A DNA stretch of 64,000 nt from Halorhodospira halochloris (lineage in GTDB: Bacteria; Pseudomonadota; Gammaproteobacteria; Nitrococcales; Halorhodospiraceae). Positions 16,103-59,292 of the stretch are shown here, in pieces. The notes beneath the pieces were generated by a model. The model saw only the letters and a list, made by a program, of their open reading frames with translations. It was not told where the DNA came from and did no database searches. The position numbers and the translations under genes were made by a program. The stretch spans positions 1,900,501 to 1,964,500 of the forward strand of contig NZ_AP017372.2 in the NCBI RefSeq assembly GCF_002356555.2, read 5' to 3'. Position 1 is the stretch's first letter; every line of letters starts with the position of its first letter.

Positions 16103-16223
16103 TTGGTGTGTTTGGTGGTTGTGGCTGTTCGGGGATTTTAGCAGTATCTTGTTTTGGTTGTTTAGTTTCTGGGGTTAGGGCTCGAGGTTTCAGCTCTTTG
16201 TGGTTCCTGGCTTACCCCCGAAT

Positions 16224-16740
16224 GGCCCCTACCTCCCCCGACCTCGTGCCAATCGCTCCGCAGCCGCGTTACTTCGCCAAGCCCTGCTGAAGCGCGAAAT
16301 CCAGCGTTTCAGCCTCCAGCCTTAGTGGCCCTCCCTCCCCCGATCTCGTGCCGATCGCTTCGCTATCGCGTTACTCCGCCAAGCCCGGCTGAAGCGCGAG
16401 ATCCAGCGTTTCAGCCTCCAGCCTTAGTGGCCCTCCCTCCCCCGATCTCGTGCCGATCGCTTCGCTATCGCGTTACTCCGCCAAGCCCGGCTGAAGCGCG
16501 AAATCCAGCGTTTCAGCCTCCAGCCTTAGTGGCCCTCCCTCCCCCGATCTCGTGCCGATCGCTTCGCTATCGCGTTACTCCGCCAAGCCCGGCTGAAGCG
16601 CGCATCCTTGCGCGCACAGCCGGCGCTCGCATCCATGCGAGCGCCCTACGGGGCTCTTTGGCTGCGTAACGCTGCTTCGCTAAAGGCACGAGATCGGGGG
16701 AGGGAGGGCCACTAAGGCTGGAGGCTGGAGGCTGGAGGCT
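16224..16740. repeat. Palindromic array repeat with 102-bp tandem units (copy 1)
   Basis: Four tandem units of about 102 bp (starting near 16224, 16325, 16427 and 16529) each begin with a GGCCC(T/C)(A/C)CCTCCCCCGA(T/C)CTCGTGCC-like head. The final unit runs into two hairpins, GCGCGCATCC-TTGCGCGC and GCGCTCGCAT-CCATGCGAGCGC, then closes with the inverted copy of the head (GGCACGAGATCGGGGGAG) and repeated GGAGGCT. The whole is therefore a large palindrome. Seven related copies follow in the array. Open frames inside it are repeat translations, not genes. Confidence 0.85.
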
Positions 16741-19106: not shown

Positions 19107-19305
19107 TGGCCCCTACCTCCCCCGATCTCGTGCCGATCGCTTCGTTATCGCGTTACTTCGCCAAGCCCGGCTGAAGCGCGCATCCTTGCGCGCACAGCCG
19201 GCGCTCGCATCCATGCGAGCGCCCTACGGGGATCTTTGGCTGCGTAACGCTGCTTCGCTAAAGGCACGAGGTCGGGGGAGGTAGGGCCACTAAGGCTGGA
19301 GGCTG
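19107..19305. repeat. Palindromic array repeat (copy 2, single unit)
   Basis: A head GGCCCCTACCTCCCCCGA, both internal hairpins, and the inverted head GGTCGGGGGAGGTAGGGCC. It has one unit only, unlike copy 1, and lies between a truncated family-2 gene and a leader. Confidence 0.8.
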
Positions 19306-22981: not shown

Positions 22982-23129
22982 CCGCTATCGCGTTACTTCT
23001 CCAAACCCGGCTGAAGCGCGAAATCCAGCGTTTCAGCCTCCAGCCTTAGTGGCCCTCCCTCCCCCACCTCGTGCCGATCGCTTCGCTATTGCGTTACTCC
23101 GCCAAGCCCGGCTGAAGCGCGCATCCTTG
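22982..23129. repeat. Palindromic array repeat (copy 3, right half missing)
   Basis: Head units are present but the sequence breaks after GCGCGCATCCTTGCGCGC and joins directly to the middle of a leader. The second hairpin and the inverted head are gone. Confidence 0.7.
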
Positions 23130-23496
23130 CGCGCACATCCCATTGCCAGCATCCGTGCCCTGACTAGCGTAATCCTTCACGCCTCCTTGTCTCGACATGC
23201 CCCTAGCCGCGCCTGGCAATCTTTTGCCCTGACCTTAAAGCAGAGCGCACACATCCATGTGCTTTGACCGCTGCTAAGGGCTGCTATGCGCTTCCTGCGC
23301 GGCGCGGTGGAGACGGCTTCCATGCCCCGAATGCAGGATCAATACTACTCCCAAATCGTAACCTGGCCAATGGGAAAAGTTCCCTATTTATATGGGAATT
23401 TTCTGAAATTTGGCAGCTAGTGGTTATCAGGATGTGAACTATATGGTGGCATAATGTGAGTAGTGACACATTTATTACCGGAGGGAGGAGTTGACC
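23130..23496 (+). repeat. Conserved leader of solo RpnS gene (copy 3, 5' truncated)
   Basis: It begins at CATCCCATTGCCAGCATCC, missing about the first 180 bp of the others. The GGGAA/TTCCC/GGGAA motif and CATAAT are intact; one G is missing in GTAGTGACAC relative to GTAGTGGACAC. Confidence 0.75.
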
Positions 23497-24968: not shown

Positions 24969-25278
24969 GGCTCCTACCTCCCCCACCTCGTGCCGATCGC
25001 TCCGCTATCTCGTTACTTTGCCAGCCAAGCCCGGCTGAAGCGCGAAATCCAGCGCTTCTGCCTCCAGCCTTAGTGGCCCTACCTCCCCTGATCTCGTGCC
25101 GATCGCTACGCTATCGCGTTACTTCGCCAAGCCCGGCTGAAGCGCGCATCCTTGCGCGCACAGCTGGCGCTCGCATCCATGCGAGCGCCCAACGGGGCTC
25201 TTTGGCTGCGTAACGCTGCTTCGCTAAAGGCACGAGATCAGGGGAGGTAGGGCCACTAAGGCTGGAGGCTGGAGGCTG
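24969..25278. repeat. Palindromic array repeat (copy 4)
   Basis: A head unit, a second head with CCTCCCCTGATCTCGTGCC, both hairpins, and the inverted head ending in GGAGGCTGGAGGCTG. The arms carry CTGATC/GATCAG instead of CCGATC/GATCGG, and both arms changed together. Confidence 0.8.
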
Positions 25279-26236: not shown

Positions 26237-26535
26237 GGCCCCTCCCTCCCCCGACCTCGTGCCAATCGCTCCGCTATCGCGTTACTTCGCCAAGCCCGGC
26301 TGAAGCGCGAAATCCAGCGTTTCAGCCTCCAGCCTTAGTGGCCCTCCCTCCCCCGATCTCGTGCCGATCGCTTCGCTATCGCGTTACTCCGCCAAGCCCG
26401 GCTGAAGCGCGCATCCTTGCGCGCACAGCCGGCGCTCGCATCCATGCGAGCGCCCTACGGGGCTCTTTGGCTGCGTAACGCTGCTTCGCTAAAGGCACGA
26501 GATCGGGGGAGGGAGGGCCACTAAGGCTGGAGGCT
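26237..26535. repeat. Palindromic array repeat (copy 5)
   Basis: Two head units with CCTCCCTCCCCCGA, both hairpins, and inverted head GATCGGGGGAGGGAGGGCC. Arms match each other over about 35 bp. Confidence 0.8.
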
Positions 26536-27095
26536 GTCAAAATTATCCAAGGTCAAGCGTGTCAACATCACCTCAGATTGACCGCTTTTCACCGGTTTAA
26601 TTTGTCCGGCTATCACAGCGCGGGGATTAACTCTTAAAGACACTCATGCCCGAGGAATAATATGTTATAAAAGGCCCAATAAAACGAGGCGCCAGGGATG
26701 GCAGCTTCCCTGCCCACACATCCCTAGCGCGCCCATCCCATTGCCAGCATCCGTGCCCTGACTAGCGTAATCCTTCACGCCTCCTTGTCTCGACATGCCC
26801 CTAGCCGCGCCTGGCAATCCTTTGCCTGGATCCTAAAACGGCCTGCACACATCCATGTGCTTTGACCACTGCCAAGGAGTGCTATGCGCTTCCTGCGCGG
26901 CGCGGTGGGGGCGGCTTCCATGCCCCGAATGCAGGATCAATACTACTCCCATAGCGTGGCCTGGCCAATGGGAAAAGTTCCCTATTTATATGGGAATTTT
27001 CTGAAATTTAGCAGCTAGTGGTTATCAGGATGTGAACTATATGGTGGCATAATGTGAGTAGTGGACACATTTATTACCGGAGGGAGAAGTTGACC
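26536..27095 (+). repeat. Conserved leader of solo RpnS gene (copy 5)
   Basis: Second leader subtype with ATCCTAAAACGGCCTGCACAC in place of CTTAAAGCAGATCGCACAC; the motif block and CATAAT box are unchanged. Confidence 0.75.
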
Positions 27096-30035: not shown

Positions 30036-30320
30036 GGCCCCTACCTCCCCCACCTCGTGCCGATCGCTCCGCTATCTCGTTACTTCGCCGAGCCCGGCTG
30101 AAGCGCGAAATCCAGCGTTTCTGCCTCCAGCCTTAGTGGCCCTACCTCCCCCGATATCGTGCCGATCGCTTCGCTATCGCGTTACTCCGCCAAGCCCGGC
30201 TGAAGCGCGCATCCATGCGAGCGCCCTACGGGGCTCTTTGGCTGCGTAACGCTGCTTCGCTAAAGGCACGAGATCAGGGGAGGCAGGGCCACTAAGGCTG
30301 GAGGCTGGAGGCTGGAGGCT
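30036..30320. repeat. Palindromic array repeat (copy 6)
   Basis: Two heads and the inverted head (GATCAGGGGAGGCAGGGCC). The GCGCGCATCC hairpin is fused with the second hairpin (GCGCGCATCCATGCGAGCGC), a deletion of about 28 bp. Confidence 0.78.
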
Positions 30321-30880
30321 GTCAAAATTATCCCATGTCAAGCGTGTCAACATCATCTCAGATTGACCGCTTTTCACCGGTTTAATTTGTCCGGTTATCA
30401 CAGCGCGGGGATTAACTCTTAAAGACGCTCATGCCCGAGCAAGAAAATTTGTTATGCAAGGCCCAATAAAACGAGGCGCCAGGGATGGCAGCTTCCCTGC
30501 CCACACATCCCTAGCGCGCCCATCCCATTGCCAGCATCCGTGCCCTGACTAGCGTAATCCTTCACGCCTCCTTGTCTCGACATGCCCCTAGCCGCGCCTG
30601 GCTCCTTTGCCTGGATCCTAAAACGGCCTGCACACATCCATGTGCTTTGACCACTGCCAAGGAGTGCTATGCGCTTCCTGCGCGGCGCGGTGGGGGCGGC
30701 TTCCATGCCCCGAATGCAGGATCAATACTACTCCCATAGCGTGGCCTGGCCAATGGGAAAAGTTCCCTATTTATATGGGAATTTTCTGAAATTTAGCAGC
30801 TAGTGGTTATCAGGATGTGAACTATATGGTGGCATAATGTGAGTAGTGGACACATTTATTACCGGAGGGAGAAGTTGACC
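30321..30880 (+). repeat. Conserved leader of solo RpnS gene (copy 6)
   Basis: Second subtype, with a 4-bp shortening (GCGCCTGGCTCCTTTGCC). The motif block is unchanged. Confidence 0.75.
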
Positions 30881-31234
30881 ATGGCCAAGATTGCCCACGA
30901 ACCTGTAAAACGCGCCATGTGCCGCATTCGTGAGCTCAGCGCCGATGAAGAAGCCCGTCGGCTCGCCTTCGTCAGAGAACGGGCTCTGCGCGATGAGGTA
31001 TCGCAGCTCAATGAGGCGAGACAAGAAGGCGAGCAAGTAGGCCTAGAAAAAGGCGAGCAAATTGGCTTGGAAAAAGGAGAGCAAATTGGCTTGGAAAAAG
31101 GCGAGCGATTGCGCGCTGAGAGGACCGCCCGAAACCTTATAAAAACTAATGCACTAACCGATGAACAGATCGCCCAGGCAACCGGCTTAACACAAGCGGA
31201 AGTGGCACAACTGCATGATGAACTGCAGGGATAG
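30881..31234 (+). CDS. Solo RpnS-like antitoxin, copy O6
   Basis: 117 residues, head variant AMCRIREL, LEKGE tract with three units, RAERTARNL, and an altered end AQLHDELQG. The same altered end occurs in the IS21-split copy L7, which suggests exchange of 3' ends between copies. It precedes RpnL copy L5, also of the LEKGE type. Confidence 0.75.
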   Translation: MAKIAHEPVKRAMCRIRELSADEEARRLAFVRERALRDEVSQLNEARQEGEQVGLEKGEQIGLEKGEQIGLEKGERLRAERTARNLIKTNALTDEQIAQATGLTQAEVAQLHDELQG

Positions 31235-31303: not shown

Positions 31304-32161
31304 ATGACCGAACTACTCTCCCCTACTAACGACTACGTCTTCAAACGCCTCTTTGCCGAAGCACCAGACCTGTTAGTAGATTTGATCAACGACCTGCGCC
31401 CAGATCTGCCCGATATTGCCAGTGTTGAGGTTCTTAACCCTAATATTGAACCGAATGAGTTAACTGGCAAGTACATCATCCTCGATGTCCTAGCCCGCGA
31501 TGGGCAAGGGCACTGCTACAATGTCGAGATACAAGTGCGCCGTTATGGAGCTTGGCACAAGCGCGGGCTCTTCTACCTAGCCCGCACACTCGGCTTACAG
31601 CTTGGCGCTGGTGAGGACTACCAGCAACTAAGAGCCGCAGTGGGGCTGCACCTGCTCGATTTTGACCTGTTCACGGCAAATCAGGCCGAGCTTGGGCAGG
31701 CGCTATGGCGCTTTGAGATGCGCGATGAGAGACAACCCGAGGTCACGCTCGGGAACATCTTGCAGATGAACCTGATCGAACTTAATAAGGCCGATCGTTT
31801 AGGGCTACCTGAGGGCCCGCTGCGCGCCTGGATTACATTTTTCACCCACTGGCGGGAGGAGTTGACCATGGCCAAGATTGCCCACGAACCAGTAAAACGT
31901 GCCATGAGCCGTATTCGTGAGCTCAGTGCAGATGAAGAAGCCCGCCGGCTCGCTTTCGTTAGAGAACGGGCTCTGCGCGACGAGGTTTCGCAGCTCAATG
32001 AGGCTAGACAAGAAGGCCTGGAAAAAGGCGAGCGATTGCGCGCTGAGAAGACCGCCCGCAACCTAATCGAAATTAACGCACTAACCGATGAACAGATCGC
32101 CCAGGCAACCGGCTTAACTCAGGAGGAAGTTTCTCAACTGCGTTCAGAACAGCAGGGCTAA
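31304..32161 (+). CDS. Rpn family nuclease (RpnL) with internal RpnS, copy L5
   Basis: 285 residues; active-site residues intact. Internal ATG at 31868. Tract is LEKGE type with a single unit, so it differs from its upstream solo gene O6 by two units. The 5' core is nearly identical to copy L2 (for example NQAELGQALWRF), while the start context is like L4, another sign of mosaic exchange. It converges on truncated family-2 copy F3. Confidence 0.88.
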   Translation: MTELLSPTNDYVFKRLFAEAPDLLVDLINDLRPDLPDIASVEVLNPNIEPNELTGKYIILDVLARDGQGHCYNVEIQVRRYGAWHKRGLFYLARTLGLQLGAGEDYQQLRAAVGLHLLDFDLFTANQAELGQALWRFEMRDERQPEVTLGNILQMNLIELNKADRLGLPEGPLRAWITFFTHWREELTMAKIAHEPVKRAMSRIRELSADEEARRLAFVRERALRDEVSQLNEARQEGLEKGERLRAEKTARNLIEINALTDEQIAQATGLTQEEVSQLRSEQQG

Positions 32162-32204: not shown

Positions 32205-32702
32205 TTACCGGAAGACCTCTTCTACGCTATCAGCGGTCAGTATATTGATAAGCCACTGCTGGATTGTCGGCTCATCAGTCTGCTCGACCCTAGGGCGGTA
32301 TTGCTCCGCTGCTTCCTTACCAAACTTCTGTTCGAGTAGCAAAAGAAGGGATTTACCTTCACCAGCCAATAGGCCTTCTTGGCGACCCTCCTGGCGACCT
32401 TCTTGGCGACCTTCCAGCCGACCCTCCTGTTTCCACTCCCTCTCCCACTCATTCATACGTTCAGCTAGCATCTCATTTACCTCCTCAAGGTCCTGTACTT
32501 CTTCCCAATCGAAGAGTTTTGAATCAGCGAAGGGTTTACGGCGCAGCAGCACGCGCTGTATCCAGATGGCAAACTCTCGTCGGATAGGGCGCTGCTCCGA
32601 TTTGACCAGCCACTTGCTGAGGGTAGCGACGATCGAGCGCATATCATCCGGCGTGCGGCTGTGTTCAAGCCTGAACAGGGCGTGAACACAGCCGCGCAGT
32701 TC
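32205..32702 (-). pseudogene. Truncated family-2 Rpn gene keeping the RpnS-like part, copy F3
   Basis: Third copy with the same end point. Internal start at 32471 intact. Changes include VKSEQRPI and VEQTDEPT compared with the full copy. Confidence 0.75.
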
Positions 32703-32759
32703 AGACGATAGATAGATTGCACCATCGCGCCAACGTGGTCCACAGCCTCACCGACTAAT

Positions 32760-33064
32760 GGCTCCTACCTCCCCCACCTCGTGCCGATCGCTCCGCTATC
32801 TCGTTACTTCGCCGAGCCCGGCTGAAGCGCGAAATCCAGCGTTTCTGCCTCAAGCCTTAGTGGCCCTACCTCCCCTGATCTCGTGCCTTTAGCGAAGCAG
32901 CGTTACGCAGCCAAAGAGCCCTGTAGGGCGCTCGCATGGATGCGAGCGCCGGCTGTGCGCGCAAGGATGCGCGCTTCAGCCGGGCTTGGCGGAGTAACGC
33001 GATAGCGGAGCGTTTGGCACGAGATCAGGGGAGGTAGGGCCACTAAGGCTGGAGGCTGGAGGCT
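32760..33064. repeat. Palindromic array repeat with inverted centre (copy 7)
   Basis: The outer arms are in the usual order, but the segment 32888-33015 between CTCGTGCC and GGCACGAG is reversed relative to all other copies: it reads TTTAGCGAAGCAGCG first and ends with CGATAGCGGAGCG. This is what flipping by recombination between the inverted arms would give. Confidence 0.85.
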
Positions 33065-33630
33065 GTCAAAATTATCCCATGTCAAGCGTGTCAACATCAT
33101 CTCAGATTGACCGCTTTTCACCGGTTTAATTTGTCCGGTTATCACAGCGCGGAGATTAACTCTTAAAGACGCTCATGCCCGAGCAAGAGAATGTGTTATG
33201 CAAGGCCCAATAAAAACGAGGCGCCAGGGATGGCAGCTTCCCTGCCCACACATCCCTAGCGCGCCCATCCCATTGCCAGCATCCGTGCCCTGACCAGCGT
33301 AATCCTTCACGCCTCCTTGTCTCGACATGCCCCCAGCCCCGCATGACAATCCTTTGCCTTGACCTTAAAGCAGGCCGCGCACATCCATGTACTTCGGCCA
33401 CTACTGCTAAGAGCTGCTATGCGCTTCCTGCGCGGCGCGGTGGGAGCGGCTTTCATGCCCCGAATGCAGGATCAATACTACTCCCAAATCGTAACCTGGC
33501 CAATGGGAAAAGTTCCCTATTTATATGGGAATTTTCTGAAATTTAGCAGCCTTCGGTTATCAGGCTGTGAACTATGTGGTGGCATAATATGAATAGTGGA
33601 CAGATTTATTACTGGCGGGAGGAGTTGACC
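33065..33630 (+). repeat. Conserved leader of solo RpnS gene (copy 7, most divergent)
   Basis: Second subtype with several changes near the 3' end (GCAGCCTTCGGTTATCAGGCTG and GCATAATATGAATAGTGG). Before the start it reads TTTATTACTGGCGGGAGGAG, intermediate between other leaders and the coding sequence ahead of codon 189 in RpnL genes. Confidence 0.75.
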
Positions 33631-34034
33631 ATGGCCAAGATTGCCCACGAACCAGTAAAACGTGCCATGAGCCGTATTCGTGAACTCAGTGCTGACGAGG
33701 AAGCCCGCCGGCTCGCTTTCGTTAGAGAACGGGCTATGCGCGATGAGGTCTCGCAGCTCAATGAGGCGAGACAAGAAGGCGAGCAAATTGGCTTGGCAAA
33801 AGGAGAGCAAATTGGCTTGGAAAAAGGAGAGCAAATTGGCTTGGAAAAAGGCGAACAAATTGGCTTGGAAAAAGGCGAACAAATTGGCCTGGAAAGAGGC
33901 GAGCGATTGCGCGCTGAGAAAGACAGCCCTAAACCTTTATAAAAACTAATGCACTAACCGATGAACAGATCGCCCAGGCAACCGGCTTAACTCAGGAGGA
34001 AGTAGCTCAACTGCGTTCTGAGCAGCAGGAATAG
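33631..34034 (+). pseudogene. Frameshifted solo RpnS-like gene, copy O7
   Basis: It has the longest LEKGE tract (five units counting LAKGE and LERGE variants) and the strong GGCGGGAGGAG site. After ERLRAE an extra A near 33920 (GAGAAAGAC instead of GAGAAGAC) shifts the frame, so translation stops at 33942 and the constant tail ending at 34034 is lost. Confidence 0.8.
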
Positions 34035-35229: not shown

Positions 35230-35309
35230 TGCTCATTCCGGTGATCGTGACCGCTGATTCCGCTGATCGTGACCGATGTCACCACCGACACCACACTGGA
35301 GCCTATTTT

Positions 35310-35648
35310 TTACTCTGACCGGTCACGATCAGTCAACTCGGCGACGTTTTGAGTAGTATTGGTAACCTCACCTCCTTCGTTACTGCGTAACGTAATTTTC
35401 ATGTCGTAGAAGTCATTTTGCTGCGCACCATCGAGGGTTTTGAGCACCTGTTCAGTAGCATCCTCAATGATCTGCTCTAGAAAGGCCCGCTGCGTTACGC
35501 CGTAATAGTGAGCTAGGCGTTTAAGGCCGATCTTGGCTCTGTGATGGATCATCATGTTGATTCTTTCGAGCATCTGCTGCTCGTCGTCAAAGCCCTTGAG
35601 ATGGCGTTGACGGTAGGCTTGTTGGCGCTGAGCGTTGGTCTTGGGCAT
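35310..35648 (-). CDS. IS21 passenger, small basic protein of unknown function
   Basis: 112 residues from an ATG with GGAG seven bases upstream. The N terminus is basic (PKTNAQRQQAYRQRHLKG), followed by RINMMIHHRAKIGLKRLAHYYGVTQRAFLEQIIEDATEQVL, which looks like a short helical DNA-binding domain (possibly ribbon-helix-helix-like, unproven). It lies downstream of istB on the same strand. A 15-bp palindrome sits directly before its ribosome binding site, which would suit autoregulation. I do not recognise the family with certainty. Confidence 0.65.
   Translation of the reverse strand: MPKTNAQRQQAYRQRHLKGFDDEQQMLERINMMIHHRAKIGLKRLAHYYGVTQRAFLEQIIEDATEQVLKTLDGAQQNDFYDMKITLRSNEGGEVTNTTQNVAELTDRDRSE
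35378..35392. promoter_or_regulatory. 15-bp palindrome in IS21 passenger region (site 1)
   Basis: CGTTAC-TGC-GTAACG, inside the 3' half of the passenger gene. Confidence 0.5.
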
Positions 35649-35657
35649 GGTTATCTC

Positions 35658-35672
35658 CGTTACGCAGTAACG
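35658..35672. promoter_or_regulatory. 15-bp palindrome before the passenger gene (site 2)
   Basis: CGTTAC-GCA-GTAACG, ending about ten bases before the passenger ATG on the minus strand and abutting its ribosome binding site; a possible operator. Confidence 0.55.
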
Positions 35673-35842
35673 CTTTATACGGACCACATCTGGACGACTA
35701 AGCGCCCGCGGGTCATCGTGGCCGCGTGGTAAAACCTAGTAGCGGTGCACAAAAGCCCTTCTAGGCCATAGGTACGCCGCCACAGGCGGTGCTGCCGACA
35801 GGTGTGCTGAGGCTTAGTGGCAGAGCCTGGCATAGCAACCTG

Positions 35843-35857
35843 CGTTACGCAGTAACA
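35843..35857. promoter_or_regulatory. 15-bp palindrome at the istB 3' end (site 3)
   Basis: CGTTAC-GCA-GTAACA, overlapping the istB stop codon; one base short of perfect. Confidence 0.45.
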
Positions 35858-36618
35858 CTATTGTGTGAGTTTGCGTCACCGCCAATAGCCTCAGAGTGCT
35901 GCTTGCGCATTGATTCACCACTGAGCTTGAGCCGATGTGCCCCGTGCAGAAGGCGATCGAGGATGGCATCAGCGAGCGTTGCCTCGCCGATGTATTCGTG
36001 CCAATGCTCAATAGGGAGCTGACTGGCGATTAGCGAGGAGCGTTGGCCGTGGCGCTGCTCAATCACCTCCATCAGATCCTGACGCTGAGAGGCAGTCATC
36101 TTTTGAAGCCCCCAATCGTCGAGGATAAGCAAATCCATTTTGAGCAGCCGGTTCATCAAGCGAGGATAGGAACCGTCGCCGTGGGCGATGCGCAGCTGCT
36201 CAAACAGCGTCGGCAACCGCAAATAGCGTACCGAGAGCCCTTGGCGGCACGCCTGGTTGCCGAGAGCGCAGGCCAACCAGGTCTTGCCACAGCCGGTGGG
36301 GCCGGTGATGCAGAGGTTGTGAGCGTTGCGGATCCAGCCGCACTGAGCCAGTGCCGCCATGCTCGATTTCTCTAAATCCCTGGGGTGGCGGTAATCGATA
36401 TCCTCGACACAGGCTTGGACTCGGAGCTTAGCCTCCTTGAGCAAGCGGTTCAGCCGCCGGTTCTCGCGGTAGAGCACCTCTTGCTCGACTAGCATAGCGA
36501 AGCGTTGTTCGAAGGGAAGTTCGTAGGTTTCAGGCTGTGCCTGTTGCTGCTCTAGCGCGTGGAGCATGCCGACGAGCTTGAGAGCGCGTAGTTGTTCGAT
36601 TGTCTGTTGATGGAGCAT
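35845..36618 (-). CDS. istB: IS21-family transposition helper ATPase IstB
   Basis: 257 residues from the ATG preceded by GAGGGGG. It has the N-terminal LKLVGMLHALEQQ region, Walker A GPTGCGKTWLACALG, Walker B LLILDDWGLQKM, and the downstream QRHGQRSSLIASQLP stretch of DnaA-like IstB proteins. It is the ATP-dependent regulator that directs IstA to target DNA. Starts 13 bp after istA. Confidence 0.95.
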   Translation of the reverse strand: MLHQQTIEQLRALKLVGMLHALEQQQAQPETYELPFEQRFAMLVEQEVLYRENRRLNRLLKEAKLRVQACVEDIDYRHPRDLEKSSMAALAQCGWIRNAHNLCITGPTGCGKTWLACALGNQACRQGLSVRYLRLPTLFEQLRIAHGDGSYPRLMNRLLKMDLLILDDWGLQKMTASQRQDLMEVIEQRHGQRSSLIASQLPIEHWHEYIGEATLADAILDRLLHGAHRLKLSGESMRKQHSEAIGGDANSHNSVTA

Positions 36619-36631
36619 GGCAAGGTCCCCC

Positions 36632-38170
36632 TCAGTGGTAGTAGTCAGCGCCGCGGACATTCGTGTGAGCCGGTAGCTCGTCTGCAGAGTCGCTTTCCGG
36701 CTCCAATGGCAGTTGGTCGAGCCCCTGCTTGATGATGGAGGCGACGCTCTTATAGCTAGTGGCACCGATTGCTAAGGCCCGCACACAAGCCGCCTCTAGG
36801 CGGGGACGACCGAAGCGTCGGGATAGATTCAGCAGCCCTAAACAGGCGCGGTAGCTATGCTCGGGGTGGGGGCGGTTGTATAGCTGCTGCTCGACGAGCT
36901 CGGCGGTAGCCGGACCAACCGCCGCTGCCCAGTGCATGAAGCGCTGCGGCGACCACTCGCGATGGGCCTGATGGGACCTCGGCATGTGCTCGATCACAGT
37001 AGAGTAGCGCCCCTGAGCGTGACGGGCATGGCTAGCGACCCGCTGACCTTTGTGTAGAATCTCCACCGCAGTAGCGCTAATGCGTAACTCCAGCATATGA
37101 CCGACTAGAGCGTGCGGGACGCTGTAAAAGCGCCCCTCATATTCAACGTGGTAGTCGATGCCTGGCTTAGCTCTGTGCCACTCGGCGTACTCGTAGGCCT
37201 CACGGGGCAGTACGCCCAGGGCTGGGCGATCCAAAGACTCAAACAAATCCCTACGGCTCTCGCTGCGACCTTGAAAGGGGCGTTCGTTGAGCACCGGTAG
37301 CAGTTCGCAGATGGCCTGATTAAGCTCCGCTAACGAGAAAAACGTATGATGACGCAGCCGCGCTAAAATCCACCGTTCGACTACCTGGACGGCCACTTCT
37401 ACCTTGGCTTTGTCCTTCGGTTTGTAGGGGCGAGCGGGCAGTATGGCGGTATTGTAGTGGGTCGCCATATCTGCATAGGTATCGTTGACTTTGGGGGCGT
37501 AACGATCTGCCCTCGTCACAGCAGCCTTGAGATTGTCAGGAATCAGAAGCCGCGGTACACCGCCGAAAAAGCGCAGCATCCGCTGATTTGAGGCAATCCA
37601 GTCCGGCAGAGACTGACTCCAGGTGGCTTCGGCGTAGGTATAGCTTGAAGCCCCAAGGACACCGACAAAGATCTGGGCAAGGCGCACTGCACCGGTATCG
37701 CGTTCGTTTACCGCTACCGTCGTGCCGCAGTAGTCGAGGAACGCCTTCTCTCCAGCGCGGTGGTGTTGCCGCATACTACGCTTTTGCCGCGAGCGCCACT
37801 GGCGATAACGGTGGCAATAATAGCTGTAACGGTAAGCCCGCTCACCATAAGTGGCAGCATACTCACCCCACAGCAGCTGCAGCGTCACCCCTTTGCGCTT
37901 GAGCTGTTGATGGATCTGGAAGCAGTCAGGCTCCACAAAGCCGCGCTGCGGCTGCTCAGAGGGGTAGAGCAGCGCCTCCAGTCGCGCCTCATCAACACCC
38001 TCGGGAAGCGGCCAATAGAGACCCTGTGCCTTGGCCAGGCTGACATACTTGCTAACTGCCCCTTTGGAGAGCTTACAGACTCGAGCAATCTGCTCATGAC
38101 TCAGACCGGCTTGGTACTTGAGGCGCAACACTTCGGTAATCTTCTTCATTCGAACCCTCTCCGTTGGCAT
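36632..38170 (-). CDS. istA: IS21-family transposase IstA
   Basis: 512 residues from the ATG with GGGAG six bases upstream. An N-terminal helix-turn-helix (YQAGLSHEQIARVCKLSKGAVSKYV) is followed by the integrase core: Asp in KAFLDYCGTTVAV, Asp in RLLIPDNLKAAV, Glu in KDKAKVEVAVQVVERWI. The C-terminal beta-barrel region includes GRFYSVPHALVGH. The frame is intact, so the element may be active. Confidence 0.95.
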   Translation of the reverse strand: MPTERVRMKKITEVLRLKYQAGLSHEQIARVCKLSKGAVSKYVSLAKAQGLYWPLPEGVDEARLEALLYPSEQPQRGFVEPDCFQIHQQLKRKGVTLQLLWGEYAATYGERAYRYSYYCHRYRQWRSRQKRSMRQHHRAGEKAFLDYCGTTVAVNERDTGAVRLAQIFVGVLGASSYTYAEATWSQSLPDWIASNQRMLRFFGGVPRLLIPDNLKAAVTRADRYAPKVNDTYADMATHYNTAILPARPYKPKDKAKVEVAVQVVERWILARLRHHTFFSLAELNQAICELLPVLNERPFQGRSESRRDLFESLDRPALGVLPREAYEYAEWHRAKPGIDYHVEYEGRFYSVPHALVGHMLELRISATAVEILHKGQRVASHARHAQGRYSTVIEHMPRSHQAHREWSPQRFMHWAAAVGPATAELVEQQLYNRPHPEHSYRACLGLLNLSRRFGRPRLEAACVRALAIGATSYKSVASIIKQGLDQLPLEPESDSADELPAHTNVRGADYYH

Positions 38171-38263
38171 CGCCGTCTCCCTCTTCAATAGGTAAGTAAA
38201 GACAGCGGTTATGCCGATTTAAGACTAAGGATTCCAGTGGGTTCGATGATATTCCGCACCAAC

Positions 38264-38410
38264 GTGACCGCGGTTTACGGCATCGTGACCGCGATTTACG
38301 TGATCGTGACCGCGATTTACGTGATCGTGACCGCGATTTACGTGATCGTGACCGCGATTTACGTGATCGTGACCGCAGTTTGCGCGATCGTGACCGCGGT
38401 TTACGCAAAG
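38264..38410. repeat. Seven 21-bp repeats at the IS21 right end
   Basis: GTGACCGCGATTTACGTGAT plus one base, repeated at 38264, 38285, 38306, 38327, 38348, 38369 and 38390; the first and last two are diverged. Further CGGTCACG boxes in the opposite orientation run to 38500. They probably bind IstA. As 21 is a multiple of three, the plus strand is open here and reads into the Rpn sequence beyond the element. Confidence 0.85.
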
Positions 38411-38515
38411 GAGATCAAAATCGGTCACGTTCAAACGGAAAACGCGGTCACGTTGGCTCGGAATTCCCGGTCACGTTCACGCGGAAAACGCGGTCACGAT
38501 CGTCCGGAATACGCA

Positions 38516-40387: not shown

Positions 40388-40540
40388 GCCCACCTCGTGC
40401 CGAACGCTCCGCTATCTCGTTACTTCGCAAGCCCGGCAGAAGCGCGCATCCTTGCACACACAGCCGGCGCTCACATCCATGCGAGCGCCCTACGGGGCTC
40501 TTTGGCTGCGTAACGCTGCTTCGCTAAAGGCACGGGAGGT
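40388..40540. repeat. Palindromic array repeat remnant (copy 8)
   Basis: A single shortened head (CCCACCTCGTGCCG), the two hairpins with base changes (GCGCGCATCCTTGCACAC), and CTAAAGGCACGGGAGG. It marks the right end of the dense array. Confidence 0.7.
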
Positions 40541-53154: not shown

Positions 53155-53284
53155 GCCCCAAGGCTAGCGCGGACTGTCTATGACGTTATTGCGTTATGAC
53201 TCGCCATGGACGGCGAGCGTAGCGCCTTCAGGACGCCTAATAAATCTCCCGGAGCCTATTGATCGCCCCCTGTGTTGAGGCCTT

Positions 53285-53345
53285 GGAGCCGTGGATGGCG
53301 CCATGAAACATCCAGAGATGGATTCACGGCGCCCGCCAAACGGGG
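53285..53345. repeat. Dispersed hairpin repeat (copy 1)
   Basis: Read on the minus strand it contains GCGCCGTGAATCCATC, TTTCATGGCGCCATCC, close to the sequence at 59200-59256. It sits in the gap between porin 2 and the lipoprotein gene, next to another small hairpin (CTCGCCATGGACGGCGAG, about 53202-53219). Confidence 0.65.
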
Positions 53346-59157: not shown

Positions 59158-59292
59158 TAAGAGCTCCCCCGTAGCCATTTAGCTGTTCCGGTGTGGAGGA
59201 CGCCGTGAATCCATCCCTGGAGGCTTCATGGCGCCATCCTTGGCGCCAAGACCTCCACACCGGAACAGCTAAATGGCTACGGGGAGCTCTTA
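59158..59292. repeat. Large inverted repeat with 41-bp arms
   Basis: Left arm 59158-59199 and right arm 59252-59292 match over 41 bp with a single extra C in the left. The 52-bp centre itself folds (CGCCGTGAATCCATCC...CATGGCG and TGGCGCCATCCTTGGCGCCA). It fills much of the gap between nudE and ackA. Could act as a two-way terminator or be a non-autonomous repeat element. Confidence 0.85.

Follow-up and report, generated by a model that had tools for sequence, protein, structure and literature searches.

The terminal repeats of parvoviruses occur in flip and flop forms, in which an outer palindrome surrounds two small palindromes and the centre is present in both orientations. Small inversions are also known from chloroplast hairpins, whose loops flip between short inverted repeats. 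The origin and persistence of long perfect stems is an old puzzle to which template switching is a recent answer, and of this process loop inversions are the most informative trace, though a rare one. In the sections cited here, Monttinen and Loytynoja (2022; PMC8794818) describe template-switch mutations in rRNA genes with 69 loop-only inversions, whose loops are typically four nucleotides and in some cases seven to eight. The variabilis GTAG-15 dimers, in turn, have been noted within long palindromes (PMC3733652, excerpts), and the Correia repeat enclosed elements of Neisseria are most commonly 153-157 or 104-108 bp long (PMC2649163, excerpts). Inversion of a Correia element was reported by Elbeyioglu 2017, as cited in the review PMC10969869. 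REP dimers in long palindromes, inverting MITEs and loop inversion by template switching are therefore already in print.

Here, we compare these systems with two families of palindromic repeats, c1 and c2, from the genome of Halorhodospira halochloris. The likeness to parvovirus flip/flop is an analogy only: c1 and c2 are chromosomal and internal, with no terminal resolution known. Chloroplast loop inversions differ in being organellar, scattered single sites, whereas c1 and c2 are repeat families. We know of no sequence relation between Correia elements and c1 or c2. Correia and c2-type elements are alike in being small, with inverted ends, a directional core and a target duplication, and the cited sections on the former do not mention arm covariation (PMC2649163). 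REP dimers of the GTAG and CGTC families share with c1 and c2 the arrangement of two small hairpins side by side; their palindromes are given as a consensus in the excerpts used, whereas the arms described here are copy-specific and flips are present, and Halorhodospira is absent from the main text of that paper (PMC3733652). As in the rRNA cases, perfect stems would be made or kept by copying of one arm from the other, and the loop is reversed with stem and flanks unchanged; unlike those cases, as far as the cited sections go, the loops are 128 and 52 bp long, the elements are dispersed repeats, and the minority orientation reaches 12 of 37 c2 copies (PMC8794818). We found no published paper containing the core sequence, and literature searches on inversion in MITEs, hairpin loops or Correia elements, on template switching and on palindromic repeats of Stenotrophomonas or Marinobacter gave the papers cited here and, among the titles listed, none on this repeat family, which is not proof of absence. 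As far as these searches show, the size of the loops, the frequency of c2 flips and the combination, in two families of the same genome, of maintained arms with flips are new.

The centre of one c1 element is reversed between unchanged arms and flanks

The window, i.e. the whole stretch of 64,000 nucleotides analysed here, covers positions 1,900,501-1,964,500 of a single-contig genome of 2,834,560 bp and has a G+C content of 57.0%. An array of rpn cassettes that includes c1 elements spans ~16.2 to ~40.5 kb of the window, and a second array lies at 338-343 kb of the genome. The element at 32847-33056 and its surroundings are organized as follows:

32757-32846, plus strand: half-unit directly upstream of the flipped element, consisting of an arm and the left part of a core in forward orientation; 90-99% identical to other half-units
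32847-32887, plus strand: left inverted arm, 41 nt, 98% complementary to 33016-33056
32888-33015, minus strand: c1 core of 128 bp, in the opposite orientation to the other array copies; two hairpins with ATCC loops within imperfect terminal inverted repeats, from sequence comparison and DNA folding
33016-33056, plus strand: right inverted arm, pairing with 32847-32887
33066-33610, plus strand: intergenic block that follows array elements, from cassette comparison

The original prediction held that the 128-bp centre is turned while the arms and the outer flanks are unchanged, and this was borne out. As its reverse complement, the element is 96% identical to the copies at 16514, 25060 and 26323, 92% to the 19091 copy and 83% to the internally deleted copy at 30123. 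Unreversed, it reaches only 69-74% against full copies, where a whole-length alignment was reported. The reversed centre is limited exactly to 32888-33015, and the flanks (half-unit 32757-32846 on one side, 33066 onward on the other) equal those of other copies, i.e. only the interior is turned. As the two arms are alike over the 35 nt adjoining the core, the breakpoints of the inversion may fall anywhere in the arms. A chance palindrome was rejected, since three shuffled windows contained no inverted repeat of at least 20 nt in the same search. A known RNA family was rejected as well: positions 14000-64000 gave eight Rfam matches at E <= 0.1, of which none reached the gathering score.

The other c1 copies of the window are:

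16514-16727, plus strand: forward element, core from 16557; arms 43/43 nt, 100% complementary; preceded by three half-units (16221-16513)
19111-19286, plus strand: forward element, core from 19135; arms of 24 nt, 96%
23032-23140, plus strand: truncated forward element fused to the intergenic block; core part 23084-23140
25060-25269, plus strand: forward element, core from 25101; arms 41/41 nt, 100%
26323-26536, plus strand: forward element, core from 26366; arms 43/43 nt, 100%
30123-30305, plus strand: forward element, core from 30164; arms of 41 nt at 93%; 27-bp core deletion
40394-40537, plus strand: forward core, nearly armless, core from 40402

Thus, the seven copies that had been said to run in one direction are all present, but only five carry both arms, as one is almost armless (40402) and one is truncated (23084-23140). 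Three more forward copies are located in the second rpn array (genome 338,276, 338,631 and 341,897), and the two arrays together hold nine armed c1 elements, eight with a forward core and one reversed (1/9, in one assembly). The 27-bp deletion in the core at 30164 falls between CGCATCC direct repeats, as judged by eye, and may represent a further slip at the hairpin. A 7-bp unit, GGAGGCT, lies beside the right arm and differs in copy number among elements (16700-16731, 25269-25275 and 30300-30311; by eye). Four c1-like relatives were found in G001; the two that share flanks (L101 and L103) are oriented alike by eye, and the flanks of the other two are not comparable.

c1 cores lie in palindromes with locus-specific arms

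Folded as single-stranded DNA, c1 is predicted to form a long, stable stem that carries two hairpins inside (z -15.3 and -17.7), and a third DNA fold (z -16.4) likewise contained two inner hairpins. The core ends in imperfect inverted repeats and contains two hairpins whose loops are of the ATCC type. The first hairpin, with a 10-bp stem and a 4-nt loop, agrees with the REP/GTAG pattern, and CTAC (GTAG on the other strand) adjoins it in 8 of 12 copies of A1; the second hairpin lacks this tag, and GAAG stands before it in 10 of the 12 copies (both by eye). Because of the untagged second hairpin, we describe c1 as 'REP-dimer-like' and do not file it as a member of the REP/GTAG dimers.

Solitary c1 cores, 81% and 83% identical, occur at genome positions 221,001 and 575,058, the former behind malate synthase and the latter behind an mtnA-like gene (names read from the open reading frames). 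Their arms measure ~42 nt and ~53 nt, respectively; each pair is self-complementary, and its sequence looks different from that of the array's arms and of the other pair. Hence, it appears to be a trait of the family, seen at three kinds of locus, that the c1 core lies in the loop of a palindrome whose arms are specific to the locus. No target-site duplication was visible by eye at the two solitary copies, and c1 was not filed as a MITE.

A second family, c2, retains arm pairing within copies

A scan of 493 kb of the genome for inverted repeats of at least 20 nt with a spacer of up to 300 gave 74 repeats, 68 of which overlapped a c1 or c2 core. Of the remaining six, four appear to be associated with IS elements, one is formed by arms of two neighbouring c1 elements, and one has no explanation. 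A palindrome at L139:12928-13095, which overlaps neither core, has 59-nt perfect arms around a 50-nt AT-rich loop. The c2 copies recorded in the window are:

59167-59284, plus strand: c2 element with 33-nt perfect arms around a 52-bp core, from the inverted-repeat scan of the window
53280-53331, minus strand: copy of the c2 core whose arms have decayed (left limit approximate; arm score 3)

Genome-wide, c2 is represented by 131 exact matches to a 23-nt core pattern; a first look gave 322 candidates, of which 40 were scored, and the copy set used below comprises 117 non-redundant copies, with no copy counted twice. The c1 and c2 cores gave no sequence match to each other at E 0.1, and both hold two hairpins with ATCC loops. 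Many c2 copies are located far from both rpn arrays.

These observations bear on the idea that a dedicated site-specific invertase, or the Rpn nucleases of the array, turn the loop round, either to serve as a switch or in the course of cutting hairpins. The flipped c1 copy does sit in an rpn array, and in the sections cited here purified RpnA has DNA endonuclease activity (PMC10327210) and a contribution of Rpn proteins to RecA-independent transfer is described for E. coli (PMC5350276). However, the cores of the two families do not match, no common arm sequence was seen, and many c2 copies lie away from the arrays; we hold this explanation to be very unlikely.

The arms of c2 pair far better within a copy than between copies, with arm scores of 31.2 and 14.4, respectively, over 67 copies, and of 29.4 and 11.2 over the 63 copies with diverse arms. 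In these 63 copies, the left arms of different copies are only ~50% identical without gaps, and the cores have a median identity of 92%. For c1, the same tendency is only modest (nine array copies; arm distance of 2.1 within and 3.2 between copies, of 40). Among the 101 of 117 c2 copies that pass an arm score of 15, 94.4% of the arm pairs are Watson-Crick. Mismatches show no excess of G.T over A.C (GT and TG 68, AC and CA 75, others 114, of 4575), so that pairing seems to be maintained at the DNA level and not by selection on an RNA from one strand, although transcription of both strands would also equalise the two classes. A transcribed RNA hairpin under selection, with the flip as a neutral accident, would agree with the strong predicted fold (obtained as DNA) and with the conservation of the core. 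It should, however, tolerate G.U over A.C if one strand were selected, and selection on RNA produces no flips; we thus consider it a highly improbable cause of arm pairing.

c2 behaves like a mobile element and its interior occurs in both orientations

The c2 elements are short (~147 bp), dispersed and bounded by terminal inverted repeats, with arms of up to ~47 nt (by eye), and direct repeats of 5-6 bp mark target-site duplications. Direct repeats of at least 5 bp were found at the borders of 44 of 93 measured copies, compared to 9.6 expected from shuffled pairing. Judging from these features, c2 behaves like a mobile element of the MITE type with 5-6-bp target duplications.

By eye, the ends of c2 are asymmetric, one being GGAACC and the other GGTGGCC or GGTGCC, which allowed us to read the orientation of the core against its ends. 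With a loose typing of ends, by which 53 of 117 copies were typed at both ends and 64 were untypable as A or B, we obtained 25 A-left, 12 B-left, 11 AA and 5 BB copies. The interior is thus turned in 12 of the 37 copies with unlike typed ends. Strict typing, restricted to one arm sub-family and a duplication of at least 5, gave 12 A-left, 5 B-left, 2 AA and no BB copies, i.e. 5 of 17 turned. One copy, L200, shows 0/128 interior differences from L150, L152, L159 and L185 and has the opposite orientation.

Part of the minority class could result from exchange of ends by conversion. Like-ended copies make up 16 of the 53 typed, and by our own arithmetic randomly assigned ends would yield about 8 of the 12 B-left copies under loose typing and about 1 of the 5 under strict typing. 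Turning both ends of a single copy in this way requires a reciprocal change or two separate ones.

Alternatively, the orientations could reflect independent history, the reversed c1 copy having inserted the other way round and c2 comprising two old orientation lineages that both spread. The apparent mobility of c2, with its target duplications, would allow for this, and so would a poorly resolved tree. On that tree, however, orientation is scattered (10 changes, compared to 10.3 in shuffles, with 28 of 33 inner branches open), interiors identical at 128 of 128 positions occur both ways, and the reversed c1 copy keeps its neighbours' arms and cassette flanks without a new insertion boundary. 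We therefore regard such a history as quite improbable. An assembly error at a palindrome might be suspected from the single assembly, the long hairpins and the repeated array; yet c2 copies outside the arrays, with unique flanks and intact target duplications, are flipped as well, which makes this extremely unlikely.

Taken together, inversion through the arms is well supported as the origin of the flipped c1 copy, because the interior alone is turned, the flanks are intact and a different repeat family flips likewise.

Template switching at hairpins may account for arm repair and loop inversion

The original prediction attributed the flip to recombination between the arms. Its core, an inversion running through the arms, agrees with the interior-only turn, the intact flanks and the c2 flips in 12 of 37 copies; in the form of a duplex crossover it fits the data less well than template switching. 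Some exchange between the arms is required. The loop would also be flipped if the inverted arms, within one duplex or on sister chromatids, underwent ordinary homologous crossover with or without RecA, and the product would look identical to that of a template switch. Six armed copies of the window have the long, near-perfect arms that this would use (43, 43 and 41 nt at 100%, 41 at 98%, 41 at 93% and 24 at 96%). Loops of 128 bp, and above all the 52-bp loops of c2, look too short for duplex arms to align unmelted, as judged from general knowledge, and plain crossover alone does not explain arms that diverge between copies yet remain complementary within a copy. Crossover thus appears unlikely to us.

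We consider it probable that template switching at the hairpin during replication explains both the arm repair and the loop flips, in c1 as in c2. The element would be a small palindromic repeat of the mobile type, in which a long inverted repeat has a conserved two-hairpin core as its loop. While single-stranded during replication, it would fold into a long hairpin, and the polymerase could change template inside one arm, copy the loop (and arm) off the opposite strand and return to its former template in the other arm. If limited to the arm, the switch would repair that arm against its partner, whereas a switch spanning the loop would leave the loop reversed and arms and flanks as before. 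The observed pattern of a reversed loop, complementary arms and unchanged flanks agrees with this. We infer template switching rather than crossover because it accounts for the repair of arms and the inversion of loops at once, because c1 and c2 need share no recombination site, and because duplex pairing of the arms seems hard to achieve across loops as short as 52 and 128 bp. Exchange of arms and loops is probably still ongoing. Against template switching count that only a single c1 copy is reversed and that the published rRNA loop inversions are few and short.

c2-like repeats are widespread in Gammaproteobacteria

Of 370 gammaproteobacterial genomes sampled, 14 contain the c2 core motif, including H. 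halochloris, which has the most copies; among public genomes, at least 117 stretches carry it. Among the 80 stretches listed (L204-L283), many come from Stenotrophomonas, Xanthomonas, Marinobacter, Arenimonas and Microbulbifer. The motif thus appears to mark a widespread gammaproteobacterial repeat with varying palindromic arms. Across species, 78 c2-like elements have a mean arm score of 18.4 within and 4.0 between copies; 53 of them score at least 15 and 25 score below 15, and for 12 of the latter the score does not exceed that of the best shuffled pairs.

Within genus g189, the element present in G227 appears to be missing from the corresponding site of G380: the flanking matches there are 46 bp apart (among the matches listed). 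The arms of the c2-like copies in this genus are imperfect. As the pattern for a flipped junction is one base off the normal opposite arm, only matches with 0 mismatches count as flips, and no exact flipped junction occurs among the matches listed for G378 and G227, which begin at 1 mismatch. One 2-mismatch match in G227 is a possible flip, and the 19 g189 copies printed were picked by similarity to one copy and are uninformative on flips. The lack of an exact flipped junction among these matches suggests that flipping is not common everywhere.

A wider reading, in which the two families are in constant flip-flop, with arms rewritten and loops turned at copying and the c2-like family shaped likewise across Gammaproteobacteria, is possible but doubtful. 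If it held, arms would drift between copies and yet stay near-perfect within a copy, loop orientation would move toward equilibrium, and the hundreds of c2 copies would form a natural, countable record of template switching. Because its copies are numerous, their asymmetric ends record orientation and the target duplications fix their boundaries, c2 could serve to count the flip rate between strains of one species. The family also carries a warning that covarying arms in bacterial repeats need not imply a functional RNA.

The elements may be fragile places in the rpn array

The rpn cassettes follow the order of a ~545-bp intergenic block, a small ORF, at least one full nuclease gene, an antisense-like block, half-units and the palindromic element, and their composition varies, as not all parts occur in every cassette. 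The small ORF resembles the C-terminal part of the nuclease, and the antisense-like block reads on the other strand like part of another nuclease gene. The cassette adjoining the flipped element contains the one full nuclease gene tested against Pfam:

31304-32161, plus strand: rpn-type gene, PD-(D/E)XK nuclease family transposase (PF12784, E 3.5e-31)

Half-units precede 8 of the 11 array elements, a fusion of core and intergenic sequence lies at about 23125-23140, and several small junctions are located at elements. Because of these half-units and junctions, the palindromic elements may be regarded as fragile places in the array. The further claim that they are hot spots driving array growth goes beyond this: small rearrangements do lie at them, but none of the junctions inspected is a breakpoint that links growth to c1 elements. 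Unequal crossing-over between the similar rpn cassettes of ~2.8 kb explains growth as well, since these have enough length and similarity to recombine in any case, without any need for the elements.

Several features of the cassettes were recorded besides. Small ORFs at 30839-31234, 33574-33942 and similar positions match the nuclease in its C-terminal part and are followed by full rpn genes; they look like the stand-alone RpnS antitoxins described for E. coli in the sections of PMC10327210 cited here. The one small ORF tested had no Pfam match, and short repeats vary within these ORFs (by eye). On the minus strand, 32205-32642 resembles, by eye, the C-terminal half of a further rpn-type protein and ends near the palindromic element; a 171-aa ORF lies antisense to it on the plus strand, and neither strand gave a Pfam match there. 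Finally, an IS21-type element with IstB-like and Mu-transpos_C proteins at 35230-38515 interrupts an rpn gene, and the two parts of this gene share 9 overlapping positions.
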